Below, piece after piece: positions 35,937 to 47,312 of a stretch of 64,000 nt of DNA. Position 1 is the stretch's first letter. Each line of letters begins with the position of its first letter. A program made the position numbers and the translations under genes. A model generated the notes under the pieces. That model worked only from the letters and a program-made list of their open reading frames with translations, made no database searches and was not told the origin of the DNA. Source of the DNA: an uncultured Flavobacteriaceae bacterium (GTDB lineage: Bacteria; Bacteroidota; Bacteroidia; Flavobacteriales; Flavobacteriaceae). Location: the NCBI GenBank assembly GCA_947502495.1, contig CANNAC010000001.1, positions 310,001 through 374,000 on the forward strand. The letters run 5' to 3'.

Positions 35937-38513
35937 TTACTTGATGATTTTTCGAATAACTGTTGAGTTTGTATTGTTGTCTCTGATTTTTACAAAATAG
36001 GTACCGTTAGATAGTTGCTCTAAATTAGATACATTGATTATGTTATTATTAGCTTGTTGGTTTTTTAAGCTATTAATGAGTCTTCCGCTAATATCATATA
36101 AATCTATATCTATATTGTTATTAGCTAAGCTATTTGGTAATTTAATGTTTATGCTATTGTTAAAAGGGTTTGGATAAATAGCAAGGTTTTCTAAAATATT
36201 TTCAGTTATACTTAAAGTTCCTATAACAATATTTACAGTATAGTCTTCTACTTCTCCAAAATCAAAAGAAATACATGGCGCATCAGGTGTTACAGCATCA
36301 TCCATTAGTACTCGCATTCTAGTTGTTCCTGCTGTTAAACCAGAAGGTACAGTAAATTGCCCAGAAACACTTGCGTCTGAGCTTGCAGCATTTTGAAAAA
36401 TTCTTTCGTCTGTTGTAAAATCACCATCTCTATTATAATCTATCCAAACAGCGTACCCTTCACTGTAAGTATTTCCTCTTGGCCATTCTGGCGTTATTGT
36501 AATCGTATATTGCGTATCTATTTCTAAATTTGTAGGTGTGTCTTGTGTAAAATCTGAATAACCAGTGTCATTAGTTCCGTTGGTAGAAGTTTTAGACCAA
36601 GAACCAATTTGTACTTGTTTAATATATTCATAGCTATCATCACTACTACTAATAACACAATATTCTATTTGAGTTGTGAAAATAGTAGAAGGTGAAAAAA
36701 CAGAAGCAGGATTAGTACCACAAATAGAAGCTACTTGTACTTCGTATTCTACACCAACAGTTAATCCTGTAATCTCATACGTGGCACTAGTAAGTCCTGT
36801 AACTGTGGTCCAAGTAGAGCCACTAGTTGCTTTATACTGTAGATTGTAGCTATCTGCATCATCCGTCCATTCTATAGTTGCAGTTGTAGATCCAACAGTC
36901 GAAGCTGTTATTCCTGTTGGTACAGTATTACTTGGTACTAATAAAACATCAGCTAGCGAAATAGTTTGACCATCCCCAATAGTTTGATTTGTTAAAGTAA
37001 CCGATTGGTAACAAGGAGATTCTATTAAAATATCATAAGTGCCAGCTTTAATAGGTCTGTAAAAATCTCCATGAGAAATATCTGTAACTGTATGAGAATT
37101 ATATGCATCATGGCCAACAATAGTAATTGTCGCATCTAATGGATTATTGGTGTTAGCATCTAAAACAGCTCCTCTAAAACCATAAGTACCTTGTGTTAAA
37201 AAATCTACTAAGGCATCTCTGTTGTAGTACCAATAATCATCTAAACTACTTTCAGTTAAGATCTTTTGATCAGATAATTCAATAGTAATTTCTCTACATT
37301 GTTGATAGTAATTCATGTAATCTTGTCTTCCACCATAAACACGATACCATTCTGCACCATGCGTTACTCCAGGACTTTGTATGTAATCATGACCATGAGC
37401 TCCAGTTGAACCGTCCCAATCATCATCATCTGTCATGTAAGAAGATTTATAGCTATATGGTGCACCAGCTGTGCTACCGGAATTTGCATCTGTTTGCGCA
37501 TGTGTAGCATATTCAACAGAGACATGTTCAAACCAATCTCCATCGGAATGCGTGTATTGCTCTGCATATGCATTATCAAAAGGATAATTCACCAATTCTG
37601 TACCTCCATGAAAATTAGCAGCTAATACAAAGTGATTTGCATCTGCTAATGCCATAAAAGCTAAAGTTTCTGTTTGGTATACTTCCCCATCATCATGTGC
37701 TCCAGCTACATTATCTGGATAGTTTCTATTTAAATCTATGTTGTTACCATTTCCTCTTCTTGCGTTAATCACAGAAGTGTTACTAGCACTATTATGGTAT
37801 GTACCATCTGGATTTGCACTTGGGTTTATCCATATTTCTGCATTTTCTACTAAGTTTTTAATTCTCGCGTGATCTGCATGCGCAGGATTGCTATAAACAG
37901 TTAAAATATAATTGATTAGTGAAAGCATCATTGGGTAACCAGCAATTTCATCTCCATGCATAGAAGATGTAAGCATGATTTTTGGTTCTTGTTCATCTGT
38001 TGCTACATTATCCGAAATTTTCACAAATAATAATTCTTTGTCACCTTGTCCTGTAGCTCCAATACTTAATTTTTGAACTAAAGCAGGATAGTCATCTTCA
38101 AATTTTTGCATTTCAACTACGTATTCTGCATAGGTTGGGTAAGCATTAACAGGAAAAGTTAAAGCTGCTCTATTTGCAGTTCCACTTGTTAAAGGTCTTA
38201 CATCATAAATAATATTATAATCTACTTCATTTTCTTCTTTGGGAACAGTAAAAGGAATGTTTTTAGTTTCAAAAATTCTAAACTGTTTTTCGTTAGCCCA
38301 AGCAAGAAGTGTTTTTGTTTGGGCATTATAATTAACAATTGAAAAATCTCTAGAATACATTTCTATTTCTTTAGTATCATTTACTTGAAAAGCGAAAGTT
38401 AATTCACCTTGTTTAGAAATATATTTCTCGGCTTTTTGTTTTTCAGAAATTTGTGCGTTTACTGAAATGGTTGTTGTTAGTAATAATACCAACATTAAAG
38501 TAAGTTTTTTCAT
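35937..38513 (-). CDS. Secreted M14 zinc carboxypeptidase with FnIII, GEVED and T9SS sorting domains
   Basis: An 858-residue extracellular metallopeptidase (start at the ATG at 38513, giving a clean signal MKKLTLMLVLLL..NAQ; an ATG at 38534 adds seven residues). After a propeptide-like region, the M14 domain (about 120-420) has the zinc motif HGDE, the later zinc His in ANFHGG, substrate-binding NPDGT and RRGNGNNIDLNRNYP, and the catalytic Glu in EITIELSDQK. Then come a carboxypeptidase-regulatory-like domain, a fibronectin III domain (about 530-620), a GEVED domain (ending FDFGEVEDYTVNI) and a T9SS sorting signal (LAIYPNPFNNSINI). It probably trims peptides outside the cell. Confidence 0.92.
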   Translation of the reverse strand: MKKLTLMLVLLLTTTISVNAQISEKQKAEKYISKQGELTFAFQVNDTKEIEMYSRDFSIVNYNAQTKTLLAWANEKQFRIFETKNIPFTVPKEENEVDYNIIYDVRPLTSGTANRAALTFPVNAYPTYAEYVVEMQKFEDDYPALVQKLSIGATGQGDKELLFVKISDNVATDEQEPKIMLTSSMHGDEIAGYPMMLSLINYILTVYSNPAHADHARIKNLVENAEIWINPSANPDGTYHNSASNTSVINARRGNGNNIDLNRNYPDNVAGAHDDGEVYQTETLAFMALADANHFVLAANFHGGTELVNYPFDNAYAEQYTHSDGDWFEHVSVEYATHAQTDANSGSTAGAPYSYKSSYMTDDDDWDGSTGAHGHDYIQSPGVTHGAEWYRVYGGRQDYMNYYQQCREITIELSDQKILTESSLDDYWYYNRDALVDFLTQGTYGFRGAVLDANTNNPLDATITIVGHDAYNSHTVTDISHGDFYRPIKAGTYDILIESPCYQSVTLTNQTIGDGQTISLADVLLVPSNTVPTGITASTVGSTTATIEWTDDADSYNLQYKATSGSTWTTVTGLTSATYEITGLTVGVEYEVQVASICGTNPASVFSPSTIFTTQIEYCVISSSDDSYEYIKQVQIGSWSKTSTNGTNDTGYSDFTQDTPTNLEIDTQYTITITPEWPRGNTYSEGYAVWIDYNRDGDFTTDERIFQNAASSDASVSGQFTVPSGLTAGTTRMRVLMDDAVTPDAPCISFDFGEVEDYTVNIVIGTLSITENILENLAIYPNPFNNSINIKLPNSLANNNIDIDLYDISGRLINSLKNQQANNNIINVSNLEQLSNGTYFVKIRDNNTNSTVIRKIIK

Positions 38514-38863
38514 CAGAATTATGGGGTTTATCAATTAATTCGGTGCTAATATATATAATTTTTCAATAAAGCATCCTTGAAATGCAAAAAAATCCGACAA
38601 AATGTAAATTTTAACACTTTTTTCATTTTTTAAAAATAGAAAAGCCAGCATGTTTATACTGGCTTTTGTTAGAAATGAAAAGGGTTTAATTCGTTTGTTT
38701 ACAGTGGTTTTAGAATTGCTGTAGTCTTTTCTTTAAGGATATTAATCCGTTCTTTTGCGAAATTTTACAGTATCCGAAAATAAATAGTAGAGATACTCTT
38801 TTGGTATCTACAGATTTTCTACACCTATTTTTAACCCATATTGCAGCCGATGGCTTCAGTGAT
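38514..38863. other. 350-nt spacer with a hairpin
   Basis: Non-coding. It holds AAAAGCCAG / CTGGCTTTT (38640-38648 and 38659-38667), a likely terminator for the upstream-lying minus-strand gene (38864-40792), although it lies almost 200 nt past that stop. The 38514-38600 part is the A/T-rich leader of the carboxypeptidase gene, with a poor match to a -7 box (TATATTAG). Confidence 0.55.
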
Positions 38864-40792
38864 TTACTTCTTCACTACTTGTTTGGTTAACACTTTATTT
38901 TTATTGTCGTCTAAAAACTGAACGATATATAATCCCGTAGGAAAACTAGAAAGATCTATTTTTCCTGTATTTTCATTAAAAGTATACTTTCCAATGGTTT
39001 GCCCGATAGTATTATATAGGAGTGCTTCAGATATTTTTTTAGAAGCTTTGAAATGGATGTAATCTTCTGTTGGGTTTGGATACACAAATAATAGGTGTTC
39101 ACTTTCTATAGCTTCTGTGCTTAATGTATTATCTGTAATTTCAACGTTTCTTGTTGTGCTATAATAGCCATTTGGGTACGTTGTAGATGTTGGTCCAAAA
39201 GAATAAGTAACGGTATATGTATCCACTAATGAATTGGATGCATCTATTTCTCCTGTATTAGCGTCTATAGTTAATCCTGCTGTGCTAGTAAATATTCCAT
39301 TAGAAACTCCATCTATTGTTGGTGACGGGTCTGTATCTGTTACGTCATATGTGGCAGATCCATAATTAAAAACGGTAAAATCATTATAATGTATATCGAT
39401 ATAGTTTAGTACTACATTGGCATAATCAATAGCAAAAGGTTCTAGTGTGCTTCCTACATCTCTAACACGTCTATTTACTTCAGTCATAATACCATCTATG
39501 GTACCACCACCACCTAGACCATCACTTGTGGCAGGACCAGAACCATGACGTTCATTATTGTAATAAAAACCACTAAAGTAATTGCTGTTATTTGGTGCAG
39601 TATCATTACAACTGTCGCTTCCACCATAAAAGTTACTTGGCGTTGCTCGGTATCCATTCGTTCCATTTCTTCCACATTCTGGATAATTCTGACTTGCATA
39701 ATAAGTACCTGGCGCATCGTGAAATAAGGCACCTAAACTGTTAGAGCCTCTAACTAATTCTTCTTGCGTAAAATTATTAATATTATCGGCAACAAGACTT
39801 GTTATGGAAGAACCAGTTACTGTATTTAAATGATTGGTAGTTGTATTTGTTAAATCACTACGTGAAATTCTATAACCAATTTCAATTCTAGGCACCGTAT
39901 GGCTTTGACCATGTAAATCTATATAAAGACCTTTTTCCCAATTAGTATTTACAGAAGCACTAGCATCATCAATAAATTGGTGCCAAGCATTCCAGTAATA
40001 TAGAGCTTGATTAGTATCGTTTGCATTGGTGTTACTACTACAAGTAGATTCATTAACTTCTCTATTTGGATCTAGTTTTATTCTATTTAAGTTATTTATT
40101 ATAACATGTGCATATCCACCAGTTTGTTGAAAAATTTCATCTTGAATTGCTCTAATTAATATTGCCGTATTGTCATCAGGCTCATTAGTACCGCAGCTTC
40201 TATTTGGTAAGGAACCAGAAGTAATAGTTCCGCCATGAGGAGCTGAAATTATTATAGGTAAGTTACCATGTATGTATTCGATATAATTATTTCCACTACC
40301 ATCAAATTCTGAAACTCCTGGGGCAAGTGGAATAGGAGGAGCAGGATCTTCAACAGCAAAATTTATTGTTTCTGTTATTTCTGTATTTGTACCACTAGTG
40401 CTAAAATTACCATCAAAGTTTACAACCGATACGCCATCTACAGTAATAGACATGTTTCCATTACCATTCCAACCATCTCCATAGGTATCATATACTATTA
40501 CATAATAACCAGTTCCTTCTGGGGAGTTTGCATTATTTGTTAAACCAGAATATGTTTCTGAAGTGTTATACGGATTTGCAGCAACTCCGGAACCATCATA
40601 GCCATTATCAATTATTGGAGTTAGAAGTGTGTCATCTCCAGTTGCTAATGTGCCATTGGAGTTGTATAGCTCTACTTTGTTTTCTGTGGACCATTGTGGC
40701 CAATCTACCGTTATAACAACATCGGATGTTTGTGCTTGTATAGCTATTGTTGCGTACAAGAATAAGCTAAGAAATAGTAAACTTCTTTTCAT
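38864..40792 (-). CDS. Secreted N-formylglutamate-amidohydrolase-like protein with T9SS sorting domain
   Basis: A 642-residue protein with a signal peptide (cleavage near AIQAQ). Residues about 22-150 form a beta domain with the YDTYGDGWNG motif seen in secreted Bacteroidota proteins. The central part (about 165-470) resembles the N-formylglutamate amidohydrolase fold: IIISAPHGG (metal His), KLDPNREVN and YIDLHGQSH. The C-terminus is a T9SS type A signal (LFVYPNPTEDYIHF, LPTGLYIVQF-like, KQVVKK). Cytosolic relatives act in His degradation; an exported version must have another substrate, perhaps formylated or amide-bearing peptides. Confidence 0.75.
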   Translation of the reverse strand: MKRSLLFLSLFLYATIAIQAQTSDVVITVDWPQWSTENKVELYNSNGTLATGDDTLLTPIIDNGYDGSGVAANPYNTSETYSGLTNNANSPEGTGYYVIVYDTYGDGWNGNGNMSITVDGVSVVNFDGNFSTSGTNTEITETINFAVEDPAPPIPLAPGVSEFDGSGNNYIEYIHGNLPIIISAPHGGTITSGSLPNRSCGTNEPDDNTAILIRAIQDEIFQQTGGYAHVIINNLNRIKLDPNREVNESTCSSNTNANDTNQALYYWNAWHQFIDDASASVNTNWEKGLYIDLHGQSHTVPRIEIGYRISRSDLTNTTTNHLNTVTGSSITSLVADNINNFTQEELVRGSNSLGALFHDAPGTYYASQNYPECGRNGTNGYRATPSNFYGGSDSCNDTAPNNSNYFSGFYYNNERHGSGPATSDGLGGGGTIDGIMTEVNRRVRDVGSTLEPFAIDYANVVLNYIDIHYNDFTVFNYGSATYDVTDTDPSPTIDGVSNGIFTSTAGLTIDANTGEIDASNSLVDTYTVTYSFGPTSTTYPNGYYSTTRNVEITDNTLSTEAIESEHLLFVYPNPTEDYIHFKASKKISEALLYNTIGQTIGKYTFNENTGKIDLSSFPTGLYIVQFLDDNKNKVLTKQVVKK

Positions 40793-40977: not shown

Positions 40978-42318
40978 TTATAGAAGTGCTTTCATTTTAG
41001 TCCTCAAAATCTTCTGTACATCTAAATTATCCTTTTGCGGAATCAAAAAGTTTTCTAAATCATCAGGAGTATTAACCTGTTCCGATTTATCTAGAAATCC
41101 GTAGCCCAAATACACATTGTTTTTAATGAGTACAAAAGCTTCCTCTTGGCTATTTCGTCCTTTTTGTTTGAGCACTAAATCTTGTTTGCTTTCCATAGTA
41201 TGGGTAATTGCTGCTAGTACACGTGTATTATAATCGCTTACCGTTTCATTGCCGCAACAAACCCCTTTACATGTGGTTATTTTATAATGCGAACATTGGG
41301 CAACAGCTTCTTGTAAGTGACAAAATTTCGGACATAATTCAAACTCTGTACACATTTTTTCTAGGTACTGTCGGCAATCAGCAATTGTAGAAAAGGTTTG
41401 CAATGCATTAGGTGTGGCTTTTAATGTATTGTAGGCTAAATGTTTTATTCCTTTTCTATCTTCATAACTAAAAATAGCATACGCTTTTGGTGCGCGTTTA
41501 GAAACCACATTAAACTCTGGATAATGTTGTTTAATGGCAGCATCTTCCATTAGGAAAGCGATAAGTTCACTACCTGATAATTCAAAGTCAATATCTGAAG
41601 TTTCCCTGCATAGATCTAAAGATTTCTGTGTTTTACTGTAAAAGTGACTTAAAACTCGTTTTTTAATGTTTTTCGCTTTTCCGATGTAAAGGATAGTACC
41701 TTTCTTATTTTTAAAGTAATAAATACCTGCTTTATCGGATAGGTTATTAAACACGGAAGTCGGTAAATGTGAAGGTAGTGTCGCTTCTTTAGACGTTTTC
41801 TTTAAGAATTCATTAAAAACCGTTTCTGCTCCTTCTTTTTGCAATAGCATTTCAAACAAAACAACCGTTGCTTCTGCATCACCTCTAGCGCGGTGTCTGC
41901 CAACAATATCAATATGCAATGCTGCGCAAAGTTTTCCTAAGCTATACGATTTATGTCCCGGAATTAGCTTTCGTGACAAACGAATAGTACATAGTTTCTT
42001 TCGGTTGAAATCCATACCTAAATCCTTGAATTCATTGCGTATCACATTATAATCAAAGTTGACATTATGCGCGACAAAAGTCGTATCTTCGGTAATAGCC
42101 AACACATCGTCTGCGATTTCCGAAAAAGTAGGCGCATTAGCAACCATCGCATTATCGATTCCGGTTAACGAAGTGATATATACTGGGATAATTACTTCCG
42201 GATTAACAAGGGATGTAAATTCATCTACAATTTGTTTTCCATCGTATTTAAAAATGGAAATCTCTGTAATTCGGTTACTAGTTCCACTAGTTTCCACATC
42301 AATAATGGTATATGTCAT
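40978..42318 (-). CDS. DnaQ-like DEDDh exonuclease fused to GIY-YIG nuclease (UvrC/Cho-like)
   Basis: A 446-residue DNA nuclease with two domains. Residues 1-165 are a DEDDh exonuclease: Asp7 and Glu9 in IIDVETSG, Asp89 in HNVNFD, His142 and Asp147 in RHRARGDAEA. Residues about 195-280 are a GIY-YIG endonuclease, with GIYYF at 198 and YIGKAKNIKKR at 211. A C-terminal region has a Cys/His cluster (CSHYK, CKGVCC) as in UvrC/Cho relatives. Its start overlaps the stop of the S24 repressor gene by 4 nt (ATGA), so it is translated from the repressor's message. Likely role: DNA repair or proofreading within an SOS-like regulon. Confidence 0.88.
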   Translation of the reverse strand: MTYTIIDVETSGTSNRITEISIFKYDGKQIVDEFTSLVNPEVIIPVYITSLTGIDNAMVANAPTFSEIADDVLAITEDTTFVAHNVNFDYNVIRNEFKDLGMDFNRKKLCTIRLSRKLIPGHKSYSLGKLCAALHIDIVGRHRARGDAEATVVLFEMLLQKEGAETVFNEFLKKTSKEATLPSHLPTSVFNNLSDKAGIYYFKNKKGTILYIGKAKNIKKRVLSHFYSKTQKSLDLCRETSDIDFELSGSELIAFLMEDAAIKQHYPEFNVVSKRAPKAYAIFSYEDRKGIKHLAYNTLKATPNALQTFSTIADCRQYLEKMCTEFELCPKFCHLQEAVAQCSHYKITTCKGVCCGNETVSDYNTRVLAAITHTMESKQDLVLKQKGRNSQEEAFVLIKNNVYLGYGFLDKSEQVNTPDDLENFLIPQKDNLDVQKILRTKMKALL

Positions 42319-43088
42319 CTTATAATTCGTTCTAAAGCTTTTAATTCTACGCCCAATTCCGTAAACATACCAAGAATACTACTAATTTTTAGTTCTTCTT
42401 CGGTGTATTCTTGGGTGTTAATACTACAAGTAAATTCCCAAAGTTCTAAAACTTCATTAATTGGCACACTGTAATCGTTGTATACTTTATTGTCTGACAT
42501 GAGTAACAAAGAACCATTCAAATCAATATTATTATACACCCGTTTATACACCATACCATCATTTAAGGTGATTAAAACATAGGTTTTACCCGTTTTAATA
42601 TCGCTTCTATTTTCTACAAAACGCCCAATAACAAAAGCGCCATCTTTCATTGGGAGCATCGAATCTCCTTTTATAGGAAAGGCACGATGTTTTCCTGTTG
42701 GTAAAAAAGGTAGTTTTATTTTTTGAAGTTGCTCAATATATTCCGGATCGTCATATCCTGCCAAATATCCTGCGGAAGCTTTTACAGGAACAATTTCAAT
42801 TAGATTTTCATTGTCGCTATCTACAGTAATAGGAAATAAAACACGCTGGTTTCCTAATTCGATAAACGAAGTGTCTTTTGCTTTCGTTAAATCATTTCGA
42901 AGTAAAATATCTATAGGAAGTTTAAAATAATCCGACAACTGAATGAGCATTTCAATAGTAGGCGCAGAGCGACCTTCTTCGTAAGAACTTATACGTGATC
43001 GGGTTACCTGTAAATCTTCCGCAAGCACTTCTTGCGTAACTCCTTTTAAGCTTCTTAAATGACGAATGTTTTTAGATATAAATTTCAT
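42315..43088 (-). CDS. LexA/UmuD-like S24 repressor with XRE-type HTH
   Basis: A 257-residue transcription factor. Residues 1-62 form a Cro/CI-type HTH (TQEVLAEDLQVTRSRISSYEEGRSAPT). Residues about 95-225 form a peptidase S24 domain with the complete autocleavage set: Ala106-Gly107 in KASAGY, nucleophile Ser143 in IKGDSMLP and Lys182 in MVYKRVY. The spacings (37 and 39) are close to LexA (35 and 37). It should repress itself, the overlapping nuclease and the divergent polymerases, and be inactivated by RecA filaments. A -7 box (TATATTTG) lies 7 nt before its ATG. Confidence 0.9.
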   Translation of the reverse strand: MKFISKNIRHLRSLKGVTQEVLAEDLQVTRSRISSYEEGRSAPTIEMLIQLSDYFKLPIDILLRNDLTKAKDTSFIELGNQRVLFPITVDSDNENLIEIVPVKASAGYLAGYDDPEYIEQLQKIKLPFLPTGKHRAFPIKGDSMLPMKDGAFVIGRFVENRSDIKTGKTYVLITLNDGMVYKRVYNNIDLNGSLLLMSDNKVYNDYSVPINEVLELWEFTCSINTQEYTEEELKISSILGMFTELGVELKALERIIR

Positions 43089-43095
43089 AATGCTA

Positions 43096-43136
43096 CAAAT
43101 ATAAGCAATAATTGCTTACAAATGTAGCTAGCTTTG
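43096..43136. promoter_or_regulatory. Divergent SOS-like operator/promoter
   Basis: A perfect palindrome TAAGCAAT-A-ATTGCTTA (43102-43118) is flanked by two -7 boxes pointing outward: TATATTTG on minus (43103-43096) for the repressor operon and TAGCTTTG on plus (43129-43136) for dinB. The repressor's box overlaps the palindrome by two bases, so a bound repressor would cover it. A flanking near-repeat (CTACAAAT and AAATGTAG) adds outer symmetry. Confidence 0.75.
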
Positions 43137-43140
43137 TAGT

Positions 43141-44355
43141 ATGAGAAAAAATATTTTGCATCTGGATTTAGATACGTTTTTTGTGTCTTGTGAACGCTTG
43201 ATTGATAGTCGGTTACAGAAAAGGCCATTACTCGTTGGAGGCACAGGAGATAGAGGTGTTGTGGCTGCTTGTAGCTATGAAACGAGACGTTTTGGTGTAC
43301 ATTCTGGTATGGCAATGAAGGTGGCAAGACGTTTATGTCCGGAAGCAGTGGTTATTCGCGGCAATGCTTCCATTTATACCAAACAATCGCATCTGGTGAC
43401 CGAAATTATTAAAGAGAAAGTTCCCCTTTTTGAAAAGGCGAGTATCGATGAGTTTTATGCCGATTTGAGCGGTATGGACACCTTTTTTGGGAGTTATAAA
43501 TATGCTTCGGAATTGAGAGCAACTATCATTCGAGAAACCGGTTTACCTATTTCTTTCGGATTATCGACAAATAAAATGGTGTCTAAAGTGGCGACAGGGG
43601 AAGCGAAACCGAATAACCAATTGCAAATAGATCCTGGTTTTGAAAAATCGTTTTTAGCACCTTTATCGATTAAGAAAATACCTTCGGTTGGAACGAAAAC
43701 CTATCAGATTTTAAGAAACCTAGGAATAGATACCGTTCGTATGGTACAACAAATGCCAGTAGAAATGCTAGTTAGCGCCTTGGGAGTAAATGGTAGAACG
43801 ATTTGGAGACGTGCCAATGGCATCGATAATCCGCCATTAATTCCTTTTCATGAACGGAAATCTATTTCTACAGAACGCACGTTTACCAAAGACACCATTG
43901 ATGTAGCTAAATTACGAACGACCGTTTTTGCCATGGCCGAAAATCTAGCCTATCAATTGCGAAAAGGCGAAAAGCTAACCGCTTGCATTAGTGTGAAGAT
44001 TCGCTATTCCGATTTTAATACCTATACCAAACAGCATAAAATTCCGTATACCAGTGCAGACCATGTGCTTATTCCTAAGATTTTAGAACTCTTTGATCAG
44101 CTGTATCAACGTCGATTATTAATACGATTAGTCGGTGTAAAGTTCACGCATATTGTAAGTGGGAATTATCAAATTAACCTTTTTGATGATACCGAAGAAA
44201 TGCTGCGTTTGTATCATGCTATGGATACCATAAGAGGAAAATATGGCGAATTAAGTATACAAAAAGCAGGATCGATAGGCGCAAAAACGATAGGGCGTTT
44301 TAATAATCCCTTTAATGGAGAACCACCAATTGTTTTAGCACATAGAAAACTATAA
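43141..44355 (+). CDS. dinB: Y-family translesion DNA polymerase (DinB/Pol IV type)
   Basis: A 404-residue Y-family polymerase. The catalytic acidic residues are intact (LDLDTFF, residues 8-12; SIDEFYADL near 101-109), unlike ImuB proteins, which lose them. The CSYETRRFGV finger motif and the helix-hairpin-helix SVGTKTYQILRNLGI are present. Gln344 starts a beta-clamp-binding motif QINLFDD. It should bypass lesions with low fidelity. It is divergent from the S24 repressor; its stop overlaps the dnaE-type start (TAATG), so the two are coupled. The -7 box ends 4 nt before the ATG, making a leaderless mRNA likely. Confidence 0.93.
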   Translation: MRKNILHLDLDTFFVSCERLIDSRLQKRPLLVGGTGDRGVVAACSYETRRFGVHSGMAMKVARRLCPEAVVIRGNASIYTKQSHLVTEIIKEKVPLFEKASIDEFYADLSGMDTFFGSYKYASELRATIIRETGLPISFGLSTNKMVSKVATGEAKPNNQLQIDPGFEKSFLAPLSIKKIPSVGTKTYQILRNLGIDTVRMVQQMPVEMLVSALGVNGRTIWRRANGIDNPPLIPFHERKSISTERTFTKDTIDVAKLRTTVFAMAENLAYQLRKGEKLTACISVKIRYSDFNTYTKQHKIPYTSADHVLIPKILELFDQLYQRRLLIRLVGVKFTHIVSGNYQINLFDDTEEMLRLYHAMDTIRGKYGELSIQKAGSIGAKTIGRFNNPFNGEPPIVLAHRKL

Positions 44356-47312
44356 TGTATTTAAATTGTCATAGCTATTATTCTTTGCGTTTTGGTACCT
44401 TTTCGGAAGTGGCTTTATTAGCATTAGCGAAAGAAAATGGGATCCAAACCCTTGCGTTAACCGATATTAATAATACTTCGGCATGTCTAAATTTTGTCCA
44501 AAAAGCGAAAGAATATGCTATCAAACCTGTTGTTGGTATCGATTTTAGAAATGGCGCAGCACAGCAGTTTGTAGGATTAGCAAAAAATAATGCCGGTTTT
44601 CAGGAATTGAATACTTTTTTATCCCAGCATAGCCATAGTAAAACGAAAATCCCTAATGTTGCGCCAAGCTTTGAAAATGCTTTTGTTATTTATCCGTTTG
44701 AACAGGTTTTGCAACAGGAAAAGACTGTTTTTCATACGAATGAATTTATTGGTATTTCTGCGGAAGAACTTCGGAAGCTTCCTTTTTCTAATTATAAAGA
44801 TTTTAAAAAGAAGCTAGTCGTTCATCAACAGGTGACCATTAGAAGCCAACGCGATTTTAATGCCCATCGCTTGTTGCGAGCAATTGATAATAACATCTTA
44901 TTAAGTAAGCTTCAAAAAACGGAAGAATGCCGGGAAACGGATGTGATGTTGTCTTTAGAAAAGCTGAAAAATGCGTTTGCAGATTTTCCGTTTATTATAG
45001 AAAATACAGCACAGCTTTTAGATGCTTGCTCTATTGAATTTTACTTCGGAAAAGATAGAACTCCACAAAATAAAAGTGTGTATTTAGAGACTAAGGAAGC
45101 AGATTATGAGATGCTAGAAACCTTGTGTGCTACTAAATTACATAGTAGGTATTCGAATCCCGATGAAAAAGTAATCCAACGGTTAGCCACCGAATTGAAA
45201 ACCATTAAGGACTTGGATTTTGTATCCTACTTTTTAATTAATTATGATATTATTAGCTATTCCAAAAGCAGGGAGTATATCCACGTTGGAAGAGGAAGTG
45301 GTGCCAATAGTATTGTTGCTTATATTATAGGAATTACCGATGTAGATCCTATAGAATTAGACTTGTATTTTGAACGTTTTATCAATCCGTTTCGCGCATC
45401 ACCACCAGATTTTGATATTGATTTCTCATGGAAAGATCGCGAAGATATTACTAGTTATATTTTTAAGCGCTTTAAAAATGTGGCGTTATTAGCAGTCTAT
45501 AATACGTTTAAATACAAAGCGGTTGTTCGGGAATTAGGAAAAGTCTTCGGCTTGCCAAAAGAGGAAATTGATAAATTGAGTAGCGGACGATTTTCTAAAG
45601 ATACTCTAGATGAAATTTCCGCTTTAGTTTTAAAATATGGGGATTTAATTAAAGGTTTTCCAAATTATATAAGTGTGCATTCTTGCGGTATTCTAATACT
45701 GGACAAACCGATTCATTATTATTCGGCAACAGACATGCCACCAAAAGGATTTTCAACGGTACAATTTGATATGATGATTGCCGAAGATGTTGGTGTTTTT
45801 AAGTTTGATATTTTAGGGCAACGCGGACTAGCAAAAATTAAAGAAGCTATAGGAATTATAAGATACAACCAACCAGAATTACCGCCAATTGATATTACCC
45901 AAGTCGAGAAATTTAAAAGAGACCCGAAGATTAATCATTTGCTTAAAAGCGGAAAAGCCATTGGTGCGTATTATGTAGAATCGCCAGCCATGCGCGGATT
46001 GATGCAAAAGCTACAAACGCAAGATTATTTAGGATTGGTAGCAGCAAGTTCTATTATTAGACCAGGCGTTTCTGGATCTGGAATGAAACAGGAATTTATT
46101 GTGAGGCAACGGCATCCTGAAAAACGCAAAGAAGCCAACCCGATGTTGCTTCAGATTATGCCAGAAACCTACGGAATTATGGTATATCAAGAAGATGTTT
46201 TAAAAGTGGCGAATCAGTTTGCAGGATTAACTTTAGGGGAAGCAGATGTGTTAAGAAGAGGAATGAGTGGGAAGTATCGATCGAAATCGGAATTTGTAGC
46301 AGTCGAAGAAAAATTCATCTCTAATTGTAAAGCTAGAGGCTATACAGACGAATTAACGTTGGAAGTCTGGAATCAAATTAAAAGCTTTGCAGGCTATGCG
46401 TTTGCAAAAGGACATTCGGCTTCCTACGCTGTGGAAAGCTATCAGAGCTTGTATTTAAAATGCTATTTTCCTTTAGAATTTATGGTGGCTGTTTTAAATA
46501 ATGGTGGCGGATTTTATAGCGCAGAACATTATATCCATGAAACGAAAATGTGTGGCGGAATAATTAATCCGCCTTGCGTAAATACCAGCGATCATCCAAC
46601 AATTATAAAAGGAAAAACTATTTATTTGGGTTTTGGCTATTTAAAAAGTGTAGAGACTTTAGTGGTGCAAAGAATATTAAGTGAAAGACAGCTTTATGGT
46701 GTGTTTAAATCTTTGGACGATTTTATAGATAGAGTCACTATTAGTATAGAACAGCTAACAATTTTGATTCGGATTGATGCCTTTCGATTTACAAAACTAT
46801 CTAAGATTGCATTGTTGTGGCAAGCTATTTTTAAACTGCGTGTTTCTAAAACTAAAACTACACAAGCAAAATTATTTAAAACAGAACATAAACAGTTTGA
46901 TTTACCAACCATTACTACCTCTTTTGTAGAAGAAGCGTATGATCAAATGGAATTATTAGGCTTTCCGTTGTGTGATTATTTTGATTTAATAGACGAGCCT
47001 TTAAACGAAAGTATTCTTGTAAAAGATTTAAATAAAAATAGTAATAAATCGGTTTTACTCTATGGTGTTTTAGTGCATACCAGATTTCATAAAGCTTCTA
47101 ACGGAAAATTATTGCGGTTTTGCACCTTTACAGATCAGGAAGGAAATTATTTTGATACGGTACATTTTACCAAAGTGGTAGAGAAATATCCCATTCATGG
47201 TTTAGGAGTGTATGCATGTTACGGAAAAGCAACCGCTTCTTTTGATTTTTGTAGTCTAGATATTATTTGGTCTAGAAAATTAGCTTTAAAACCAGATCCA
47301 AGAGGAAAATAA
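44355..47312 (+). CDS. Short DnaE-type DNA polymerase III alpha subunit (error-prone class)
   Basis: A 985-residue C-family polymerase, shorter than replicative DnaE (about 1150-1450). The PHP domain (1-250) looks worn: it starts NCHSYYSLRFG and reads LTDIN where DnaE1 has TDHG. Catalytic Asps are in PPDFDIDF (near 351) and KFDILGQRGL (near 483). Fingers and helix-hairpin-helix regions follow, and an OB fold ends the protein (LLYGVLVHTRF..GKLLRFCTF). It is coupled to dinB by a one-base overlap and most likely extends from DinB-inserted bases, as DnaE2/ImuC does. Confidence 0.88.
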   Translation: MYLNCHSYYSLRFGTFSEVALLALAKENGIQTLALTDINNTSACLNFVQKAKEYAIKPVVGIDFRNGAAQQFVGLAKNNAGFQELNTFLSQHSHSKTKIPNVAPSFENAFVIYPFEQVLQQEKTVFHTNEFIGISAEELRKLPFSNYKDFKKKLVVHQQVTIRSQRDFNAHRLLRAIDNNILLSKLQKTEECRETDVMLSLEKLKNAFADFPFIIENTAQLLDACSIEFYFGKDRTPQNKSVYLETKEADYEMLETLCATKLHSRYSNPDEKVIQRLATELKTIKDLDFVSYFLINYDIISYSKSREYIHVGRGSGANSIVAYIIGITDVDPIELDLYFERFINPFRASPPDFDIDFSWKDREDITSYIFKRFKNVALLAVYNTFKYKAVVRELGKVFGLPKEEIDKLSSGRFSKDTLDEISALVLKYGDLIKGFPNYISVHSCGILILDKPIHYYSATDMPPKGFSTVQFDMMIAEDVGVFKFDILGQRGLAKIKEAIGIIRYNQPELPPIDITQVEKFKRDPKINHLLKSGKAIGAYYVESPAMRGLMQKLQTQDYLGLVAASSIIRPGVSGSGMKQEFIVRQRHPEKRKEANPMLLQIMPETYGIMVYQEDVLKVANQFAGLTLGEADVLRRGMSGKYRSKSEFVAVEEKFISNCKARGYTDELTLEVWNQIKSFAGYAFAKGHSASYAVESYQSLYLKCYFPLEFMVAVLNNGGGFYSAEHYIHETKMCGGIINPPCVNTSDHPTIIKGKTIYLGFGYLKSVETLVVQRILSERQLYGVFKSLDDFIDRVTISIEQLTILIRIDAFRFTKLSKIALLWQAIFKLRVSKTKTTQAKLFKTEHKQFDLPTITTSFVEEAYDQMELLGFPLCDYFDLIDEPLNESILVKDLNKNSNKSVLLYGVLVHTRFHKASNGKLLRFCTFTDQEGNYFDTVHFTKVVEKYPIHGLGVYACYGKATASFDFCSLDIIWSRKLALKPDPRGK

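Follow-up and report, generated by a model that had tools for sequence, protein, structure and literature searches.

A candidate single-locus SOS cassette with an S24 repressor, an exonuclease/GIY-YIG nuclease, DinB and a short DnaE in Flavobacteriaceae

Four genes around one short gap

A 64,000-nucleotide stretch of the genome of an uncultured marine Flavobacteriaceae bacterium (assembly GCA_947502495.1, contig CANNAC010000001.1, positions 310,001 to 374,000), here called the window, contains four genes arranged as two divergent pairs. Two run leftward from a gap of 52 bp, an S24 repressor and a nuclease joining exonuclease and GIY-YIG domains, and two run rightward, dinB and a short dnaE (Table 1). 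Within each pair, the open reading frames (ORFs) overlap, by 4 nt in the first (42315-42318) and by 1 nt in the second (44355). The initial annotation, drawn from the sequence alone, had described the four ORFs, their strands, both overlaps, and the gap, and the ORF check reproduced all of them exactly to the base. The ORF list has no additional gene inside this cassette, and none of the products is ImuA by Pfam. We read it as a single-locus SOS cassette (probability about 0.6), in which a repressor released by DNA damage would free a nuclease that excises and two polymerases, DinB and DnaE, that fill.

Table 1. Features of the cassette in window coordinates, with the parts of the nuclease in residues
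Feature	Position	Strand	Remarks
Nuclease gene	40978-42318	-	ORF calls
S24 repressor gene	42315-43088	-	ORF calls
dinB	43141-44355	+	ORF calls
Short dnaE	44355-47312	+	985 aa, C-family polymerase, DnaE2-like partner; ORF calls, domains, kept residues
Shared control region	43089-43140		52 bp, between the divergent gene pairs
Operator-like dyad O1, GCTACAAATATAAGC	43092..43106		2 of 8 dyad positions off CTAC-N5-GTAG
Operator-like dyad O2, GCTTACAAATGTAGC	43114..43128		2 of 8 positions off CTAC-N5-GTAG; 22 bp from O1, centre to centre
Central palindrome, TAAGCAATAATTGCTTA	43102..43118		joins the inner half of O1 to that of O2; a single exact copy in the genome
Predicted -7 element, TATATTTG	43096..43103	-	S24-nuclease promoter; within O1
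Predicted -7 element, TAGCTTTG	43129..43136	+	dinB-dnaE promoter; abuts O2, ATG 4 nt on
Nuclease, DEDDh exonuclease	residues ~2-160
Nuclease, Cho/UvrC-type GIY-YIG	residues ~190-274
Nuclease, C4 cysteine region	C329, C342, C350, C354		extra cysteines C323, C333

The S24 protein has HTH_3 (1.6e-13) and Peptidase_S24 (1.1e-7) domains in Pfam. Residues A106, G107, S143, and K182, which we take from family knowledge to be the scissile (A106-G107) and catalytic positions, match the window in 97% or more of 122 aligned sequences (sequences with stops or partial matches were left out of all residue alignments). Its structure model (mean predicted local distance difference test [pLDDT] score, 62.9) was not used. 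Counted at an identity of at least 46%, this repressor is present in 40 of the 120 genomes of our family set, one per genus, at 42 full-length loci; a truncated copy (L093) brings the operator scans to 43. The window's genus is represented by seven genomes, four of them with the repressor, and the closest named matches among those listed are Oceanihabitans and Lacinutrix records. Across the class, an S24 match at E <= 1e-24 was found in 136 of 197 genomes, a spread resembling the one published for the CTAA-N5-TTAG group of non-canonical LexA proteins. The helix-turn-helix part matches phage- and XRE-type repressors, and the published family is itself thought to derive from phage repressors (PMC8565304), which would suit a module of phage or mobile-element origin whose repressor is of the CI type. 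Yet Pfam gave no phage-type match in seven proteins around the locus besides the repressor's own domain, the gene is spread over the class as just described, and its partners are repair polymerases, so that a mobile module is highly improbable and an SOS cassette remains our preferred reading.

The nuclease combines RNase_T and GIY-YIG domains, with no UvrB-binding domain among its Pfam matches. Its AlphaFold2 model (mean pLDDT, 87.6) finds fold matches in the PDB among DnaQ/PolC-type exonucleases and to the UvrC GIY-YIG domain 1yd6; the Cho model was matched over 19-247 of 289 positions, with 90 bits against a cut-off of 367. D7, E9, D89, H142, and D147 of the exonuclease and G198, Y200, Y211, G213, R221, E258, and N270 of the GIY-YIG domain, presumably catalytic from what is known of these families, are the same as in the window in at least 97% of 81 aligned sequences. 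There are two related families of such nucleases. The one found here, which we call the SOS type (at least 46% identity), occurs in 53 of the 120 genomes; a match at E <= 1e-40, including the ca. 40% identical paralogue, occurs in 117. The window's own genome carries such a paralogue (L276, G000:C9:65432-66757), a type that most genomes of the family have. The DEDDh set is complete in 81/81 SOS-type proteins and 12/12 sampled paralogues, the GIY-YIG set nearly so, and the cysteines C329, C342, C350, and C354 are found in 79 to 81 of the former and in all 12 of the latter, while C323 (81/81) and C333 (80/81) belong to the SOS type only and are absent from the 12 paralogues. The protein is best read as a nuclease of the Cho+Exo type.

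DinB (IMS and IMS_C domains in Pfam) is a catalytically complete Y-family polymerase, and DnaE has PHP, DNA_pol3_alpha, finger, and HHH_6 domains. The positions that we take from family knowledge to be catalytic are the same as in the window in at least 97% of the aligned sequences, both in DinB (D9, D103, and E104; 103 sequences) and in DnaE (D352, D354, D356, and D485; 102 sequences). DinB residues 344 to 348 read QINLF, presumably a clamp-type motif. With the NCBIfam models, DnaE passed the polc superfamily cut-off alone, the DnaE (522 bits) and error-prone polymerase (427 bits) models both staying below theirs. This DnaE is present in 66 of the 120 genomes, 65 of which also have this DinB, and the two are best read as the published Bacteroidetes PolY-DnaE2 pair. 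As a candidate for the RecA-NT-like motif of the DnaE2B-PolY-RecA module, DinB has MDTIRGKYG, which by eye resembles LDKLDKAYG of the organism's own RecA; in pairwise alignments of the DinB C-terminal tail with the RecA N terminus, 575 of 2000 shuffles were as good or better. The reading of the initial annotation, a mutagenesis cassette linked to S24 whose Y-family polymerase is complete and which lacks ImuA, is supported, and repressors and polymerases of these types have been published for Bacteroidetes (PMC8565304, PMC6511836, PMC12926913).

Beside the cassette (35937-40792) lie two genes whose products have secretion-sorting tails, one an M14 carboxypeptidase and the other with a weak, below-cut-off match to formylglutamate amidohydrolase; a link to the cassette is not evident.

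Tandem dyads and predicted promoters

Two 15-bp dyads, GCTACAAATATAAGC (O1) and a GCTTACAAATGTAGC-like word (O2), are common to the gaps between S24 and the polymerases. Sites of the form CTAC-N5-GTAG with up to two mismatches number 66 in the 43 S24 regions against 7.9 expected by shuffling, O1 and O2 having been defined from the same regions, and at this tolerance the dyad pair stands at exactly 22 bp in 27/43 loci. This distance is about two helical turns and suggests two repressor dimers on one face of the DNA. A tandem matrix was trained on 70 sites from 80 named loci (the best 80 of 236 matches, dominated by close relatives and with some contigs the same as family-set loci) and scored above 15 at 37/43 S24 loci; this count is descriptive, since at least 10 training loci share contigs with test loci (e.g., L197 is G049:C27 and L202 is G109:C18), and the shuffles used with the score preserve single-base composition only.

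The sites published for non-canonical LexA regulators are GGA-N5-TCC and CTAA-N5-TTAG, degenerate variants of the latter being reported as functional (PMC8565304). Neither word was found upstream of S24 at any of the 43 loci. As a positive control, GGA-N5-TCC precedes 4/5 polymerase operons of a second S24 family, which adjoins dinB in G010, G057, G077, G094, and G111, and 11/16 polymerase operons with no S24 gene in the fetched stretch. In a class-wide search (29 fetched loci, with flanks of up to 1.5 kb), CTAA-N5-TTAG was found upstream in nine loci, CTAC-N5-GTAG in four, and both in two. The repressor can therefore be read as a member of the widely spread CTAA-N5-TTAG group whose operator has drifted, and thus, at best reading, as a non-canonical Bacteroidetes LexA.

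Exact copies of the O1 word GCTACAAATRTAAGCAA in the 120 genomes amount to 16, all upstream of this S24 gene. Allowing one mismatch raises the number to 50, the reversed control giving 11; of the 50, 25 are at S24 loci and one is at a separate polymerase operon (G084). In the window's own genome, the word occurs at this tolerance only once, at the cassette, which is why the regulon of the repressor may be this locus alone and why a global regulon was rejected. A wider regulon sought through the 17-bp palindrome (up to three mismatches) was rejected as well (20 matches forward and 20 reverse, fewer than the 29 and 38 of the reversed control, with no enrichment beyond the cassette), and a looser tandem pattern matched 118/120 genomes and was uninformative. 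The stretch of the own genome with the second dinB gave no tandem above shuffles; looser or single sites are still possible there.

Four genomes have an intact repressor together with a separate polymerase operon (G003, G084, G013, and G113). By comparison, this operon keeps the dyads in three of the four, by score in G003 and G084 and, at a spacing of 23 bp, as judged by eye in G013. In G113, a repressor copy reduced to its DNA-binding domain (L093, G113:C1:1905803-1906018) is divergent from dnaE-dinB, and an intact copy elsewhere (L072) adjoins the nuclease. The altered half-sites at L093 resemble, by eye, those upstream of L072, which would be a case of co-drift.

Of the 73 distinct S24-polymerase gaps below 130 nt, 46 measure exactly 52 nt. 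The word TAnnTTTG, which has been described as the consensus of the -7 element in Bacteroides fragilis (PMC2483708), is present on the polymerase side of 68 of these gaps and the S24 side of 70 (shuffles averaged 2.8 and reached at most 10), most often 4 nt from the start codon on the former (48/73) and 7 nt on the latter (46). O1 covers the predicted S24 element in the window and O2 abuts that of dinB. Such spacings suggest near-leaderless mRNAs; in the window, the predicted -7 element stops just 4 nt (43137-43140) short of dinB, whose mRNA may therefore be leaderless.

Linkage and decay in relatives

Linkage of S24 to the exonuclease/GIY-YIG fusion and to dinB-dnaE, which the initial annotation had put forward for checking, turned out to be conserved across genera in the family genomes. 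At the 42 full-length loci, polymerases adjoin S24 in 30, the nuclease in 20, both in 10, and neither in 2 (L060 and L091); L078, where dnaE reaches the contig end, was counted as polymerase linked, and L076, with a dnaE fragment, was not. The corresponding figures for the 80 named loci are 57, 42, 22, and 1 (nuclease start up to 200 nt from the S24 end, polymerase gene up to 700 nt), with 2 more loci ending at a contig edge where no nuclease was seen. Both orders of the polymerases occur, dinB-dnaE and dnaE-dinB, and the partners can be split between two repressor copies, as in Flaviramulus basaltis (L197 with the polymerases and L210 with the nuclease). Among the class-search loci, dinB is divergent from S24 in 10, and a nuclease-type gene lies on the S24 strand in 6, although its matches are 39 to 49% identical and may be either paralogue. 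One genome (G061) has two complete four-gene cassettes ca. 0.7 Mb apart, each with the dyad pair (L053 and L056), and another (L109 in G108) has dinB, dnaE, and the SOS-type nuclease in a same-strand run without this S24 and with a GGAAATATTCC site upstream of dinB.

The arrangement is more than chance, because the same neighbors recur across genera and the 52-nt gap recurs in 46 of the 73. Some genomes do not hold all four genes together, as would be the case for mere neighbors, but recurrent adjacency, gap length, and shared dyads make such a coincidence hardly credible.

Loss of the polymerases can be seen in progress. Beside an S24-nuclease pair, only the first ca. 46 codons of dinB are left in L. 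himadriensis (L192) and in an Oceanihabitans metagenome-assembled genome (L191), scattered dinB pieces in G049:C16 (L057), and a dnaE fragment in G047 (L076); a congener, G122 (L286), has all four genes. These remnants indicate that the polymerases were lost there and the S24-nuclease pair kept. On the S24 tree (identical sequences and L051, the window itself, left out; 35 of 108 inner branches well supported), 26 changes are required for nuclease adjacency and 20 for that of the polymerases.

Several observations weigh against one switch for all four genes. The nuclease was taken in the initial annotation for a fixed partner, which the adjacency counts contradict: it lies away from S24 in 38/80 named and 22/42 family loci, 35 of the 55 SOS-type copies counted in the 120 genomes are not linked to it, and this type occurs without dinB and dnaE in 11/53 genomes. 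None of the six unlinked copies in repressor-bearing genomes (L097 to L102) has the tandem operator. The count is 0/18 for all the unlinked nucleases examined, of the 35, the other 12 being in genomes without this repressor, where no operator is expected; GGA-N5-TCC and CTAA-N5-TTAG were also found at 0/18. As for the operator itself, 6/43 S24 loci lack the tandem pattern by score, exact CTAC-N5-GTAG stands upstream of only 10/43 S24 genes, and O1 and O2 of the window each miss two of its eight positions. In addition, 24 of the 50 one-mismatch O1 matches sit elsewhere (11 in the reversed control), the separate polymerase operon of G113 scores -1.1 for the tandem, and the stretch of the organism's own recA shows none above shuffles, looser or single sites being still possible.

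Part of this would suit a nuclease that is a hitchhiker, co-transcribed with S24 and with an unrelated role, the functional cassette being S24-dinB-dnaE. Its adjacency comes and goes on the tree, the unlinked copies in repressor-bearing genomes are without operator, and 24/66 DnaE-bearing genomes have no SOS-type nuclease. We consider this unlikely in view of the overlap with S24 by 4 or 1 nt in 38/42 linked named loci and of the S24-nuclease pairs kept beside polymerase fragments. Moreover, L203 and L204 (titled Algibacter) have the nuclease next to dnaE, at the opposite end of the cassette, and in another family of the class (L316), nuclease, S24, dinB, and the start of dnaE are found together.

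The nuclease could instead be a dedicated proofreader, its DEDDh domain editing DinB and DnaE errors and its GIY-YIG domain incidental. A DnaQ-like exonuclease domain is in keeping with that role, and so is co-occurrence, this DnaE being present in 42/53 genomes with the SOS-type nuclease versus 24/67 without (Fisher p = 2.7e-6, not corrected for phylogeny and with presence lists cut by identity by hand). On the other hand, GIY-YIG catalytic residues are kept in 80 to 81 of 81 sequences, indicating that this half is under selection, and the exonuclease/GIY-YIG architecture, with a match in 117/120 genomes versus 66/120 for DnaE, is independent of these polymerases. Inspection, by eye only, spotted no clamp-type motif in the nuclease. 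A proofreader is therefore quite improbable, and of the two roles that the initial annotation had offered for the nuclease, proofreading or making entry sites for the polymerases, it is the weaker. The second, a putative role, fits both the proposal made for Cho+Exo nucleases (PMC1564403) and the coupling of gaps to DnaE2, Pol IV, and Pol V in other bacteria (PMC8102061, PMC5521853).

Proposed mechanism and relation to known systems

The best-supported step of the SOS cassette is regulation by a cleavable repressor, going by relatives studied experimentally: in E. anophelis, the regulator recognizes a diverged dyad, and mitomycin C induces both the regulator gene and the error-prone polymerase gene opposite it (PMC8565304). 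Comparison among relatives places the S24 repressor beside two tandem dyads at both divergent predicted promoters, and the switch probably holds both error-prone polymerases and the repair nuclease silent until DNA is damaged. From family knowledge, repressor dimers at the dyads would silence both transcripts, RecA filaments on damaged DNA would trigger self-cleavage at A106-G107, and repressor, nuclease, DinB, and DnaE would then be made jointly, the repressor encoded in its own operon resetting the switch. The GIY-YIG domain would nick 3' of bulky or clustered lesions, and the DEDDh domain would cut the damaged strand back beyond the lesion in the 3'-to-5' direction, a polarity that we assume from its family. 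DinB and DnaE would fill the resulting gap at the cost of mutations.

This excise-and-fill role draws on analogy. The proposal made for Cho+Exo nucleases has the GIY-YIG domain making the incision and the exonuclease degrading the damaged strand through the lesion, with a direction of digestion worded otherwise than the polarity assumed here (PMC1564403). Nucleotide excision repair gaps are filled by DnaE2 in Caulobacter (PMC8102061), and excision-repair mutagenesis in E. coli involves Pol IV and Pol V, with a gap-enlarging exonuclease described as unknown (PMC5521853). It is conceivable, though doubtful, that the cassette is an excise-and-fill device for mutagenesis, complete in itself. One switch would then make the enzyme opening and enlarging the gaps as well as the two filling polymerases, and the nuclease would be the counterpart of that E. 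coli exonuclease. Excision repair can itself be mutagenic when the gap exposes a second lesion. With a likely nick-and-trim enzyme tied to the repressor of two polymerases likely to fill gaps, the cassette bears on the question of whether induced mutagenesis has excision gaps as its substrate. Judging from its dyads, the repressor may also be a non-canonical LexA governing one locus, a useful case for the shrinkage of SOS regulons and for operator drift.

The repressor type, the polymerase pair, and the predicted regulation of a GIY-YIG exonuclease are already in print; the tightly coupled repair nuclease is the less described part. We found no account of the nuclease/repressor gene overlap or of the 22-bp tandem dyads in the literature searched, supplements not covered, and Supplementary Table S10 of PMC8565304 (diverged motifs) may already include the CTAC-N5-GTAG dyad.

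Like the non-canonical LexA proteins of Bacteroidetes, regulators of S24 type that bind dyad-N5-dyad sites, the repressor has HTH_3 and S24 domains, the Ala-Gly and Ser-Lys residues, and an operator-like palindrome at its own predicted promoter, and as in their regulon, an error-prone polymerase gene lies opposite, here in a dinB-dnaE operon (PMC8565304). In a further likeness, that regulon is predicted to include a GIY-YIG exonuclease (COG0847; PMC8565304). The dyads of the cassette differ in being of the CTAC-N5-GTAG type, in tandem at 22 bp. The nuclease shares with Cho+Exo and Cho-like+Exo proteins (PMC1564403) an N-terminal exonuclease, a GIY-YIG domain with catalytic residues, and the C4 cysteine region; it is a Bacteroidota version coupled to an S24 repressor and has two extra cysteines, C323 and C333, not shared by the 12 sampled paralogues. 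A Y-family gene adjoins a DnaE2-like gene here, much as in the ImuA-ImuB-DnaE2 mutasome, but DinB has its catalytic residues intact, in contrast to the catalytically dead ImuB, and the cassette has no ImuA (PMC6511836). The closest parallel for the polymerases is the PolY2-DnaE2 or DnaE2B-PolY-RecA module, with an active Y-family and a DnaE2-type polymerase and neither ImuA nor ImuB-C in the operon; to that module, as described, the cassette adds the nuclease and this repressor (PMC6511836, PMC12926913).

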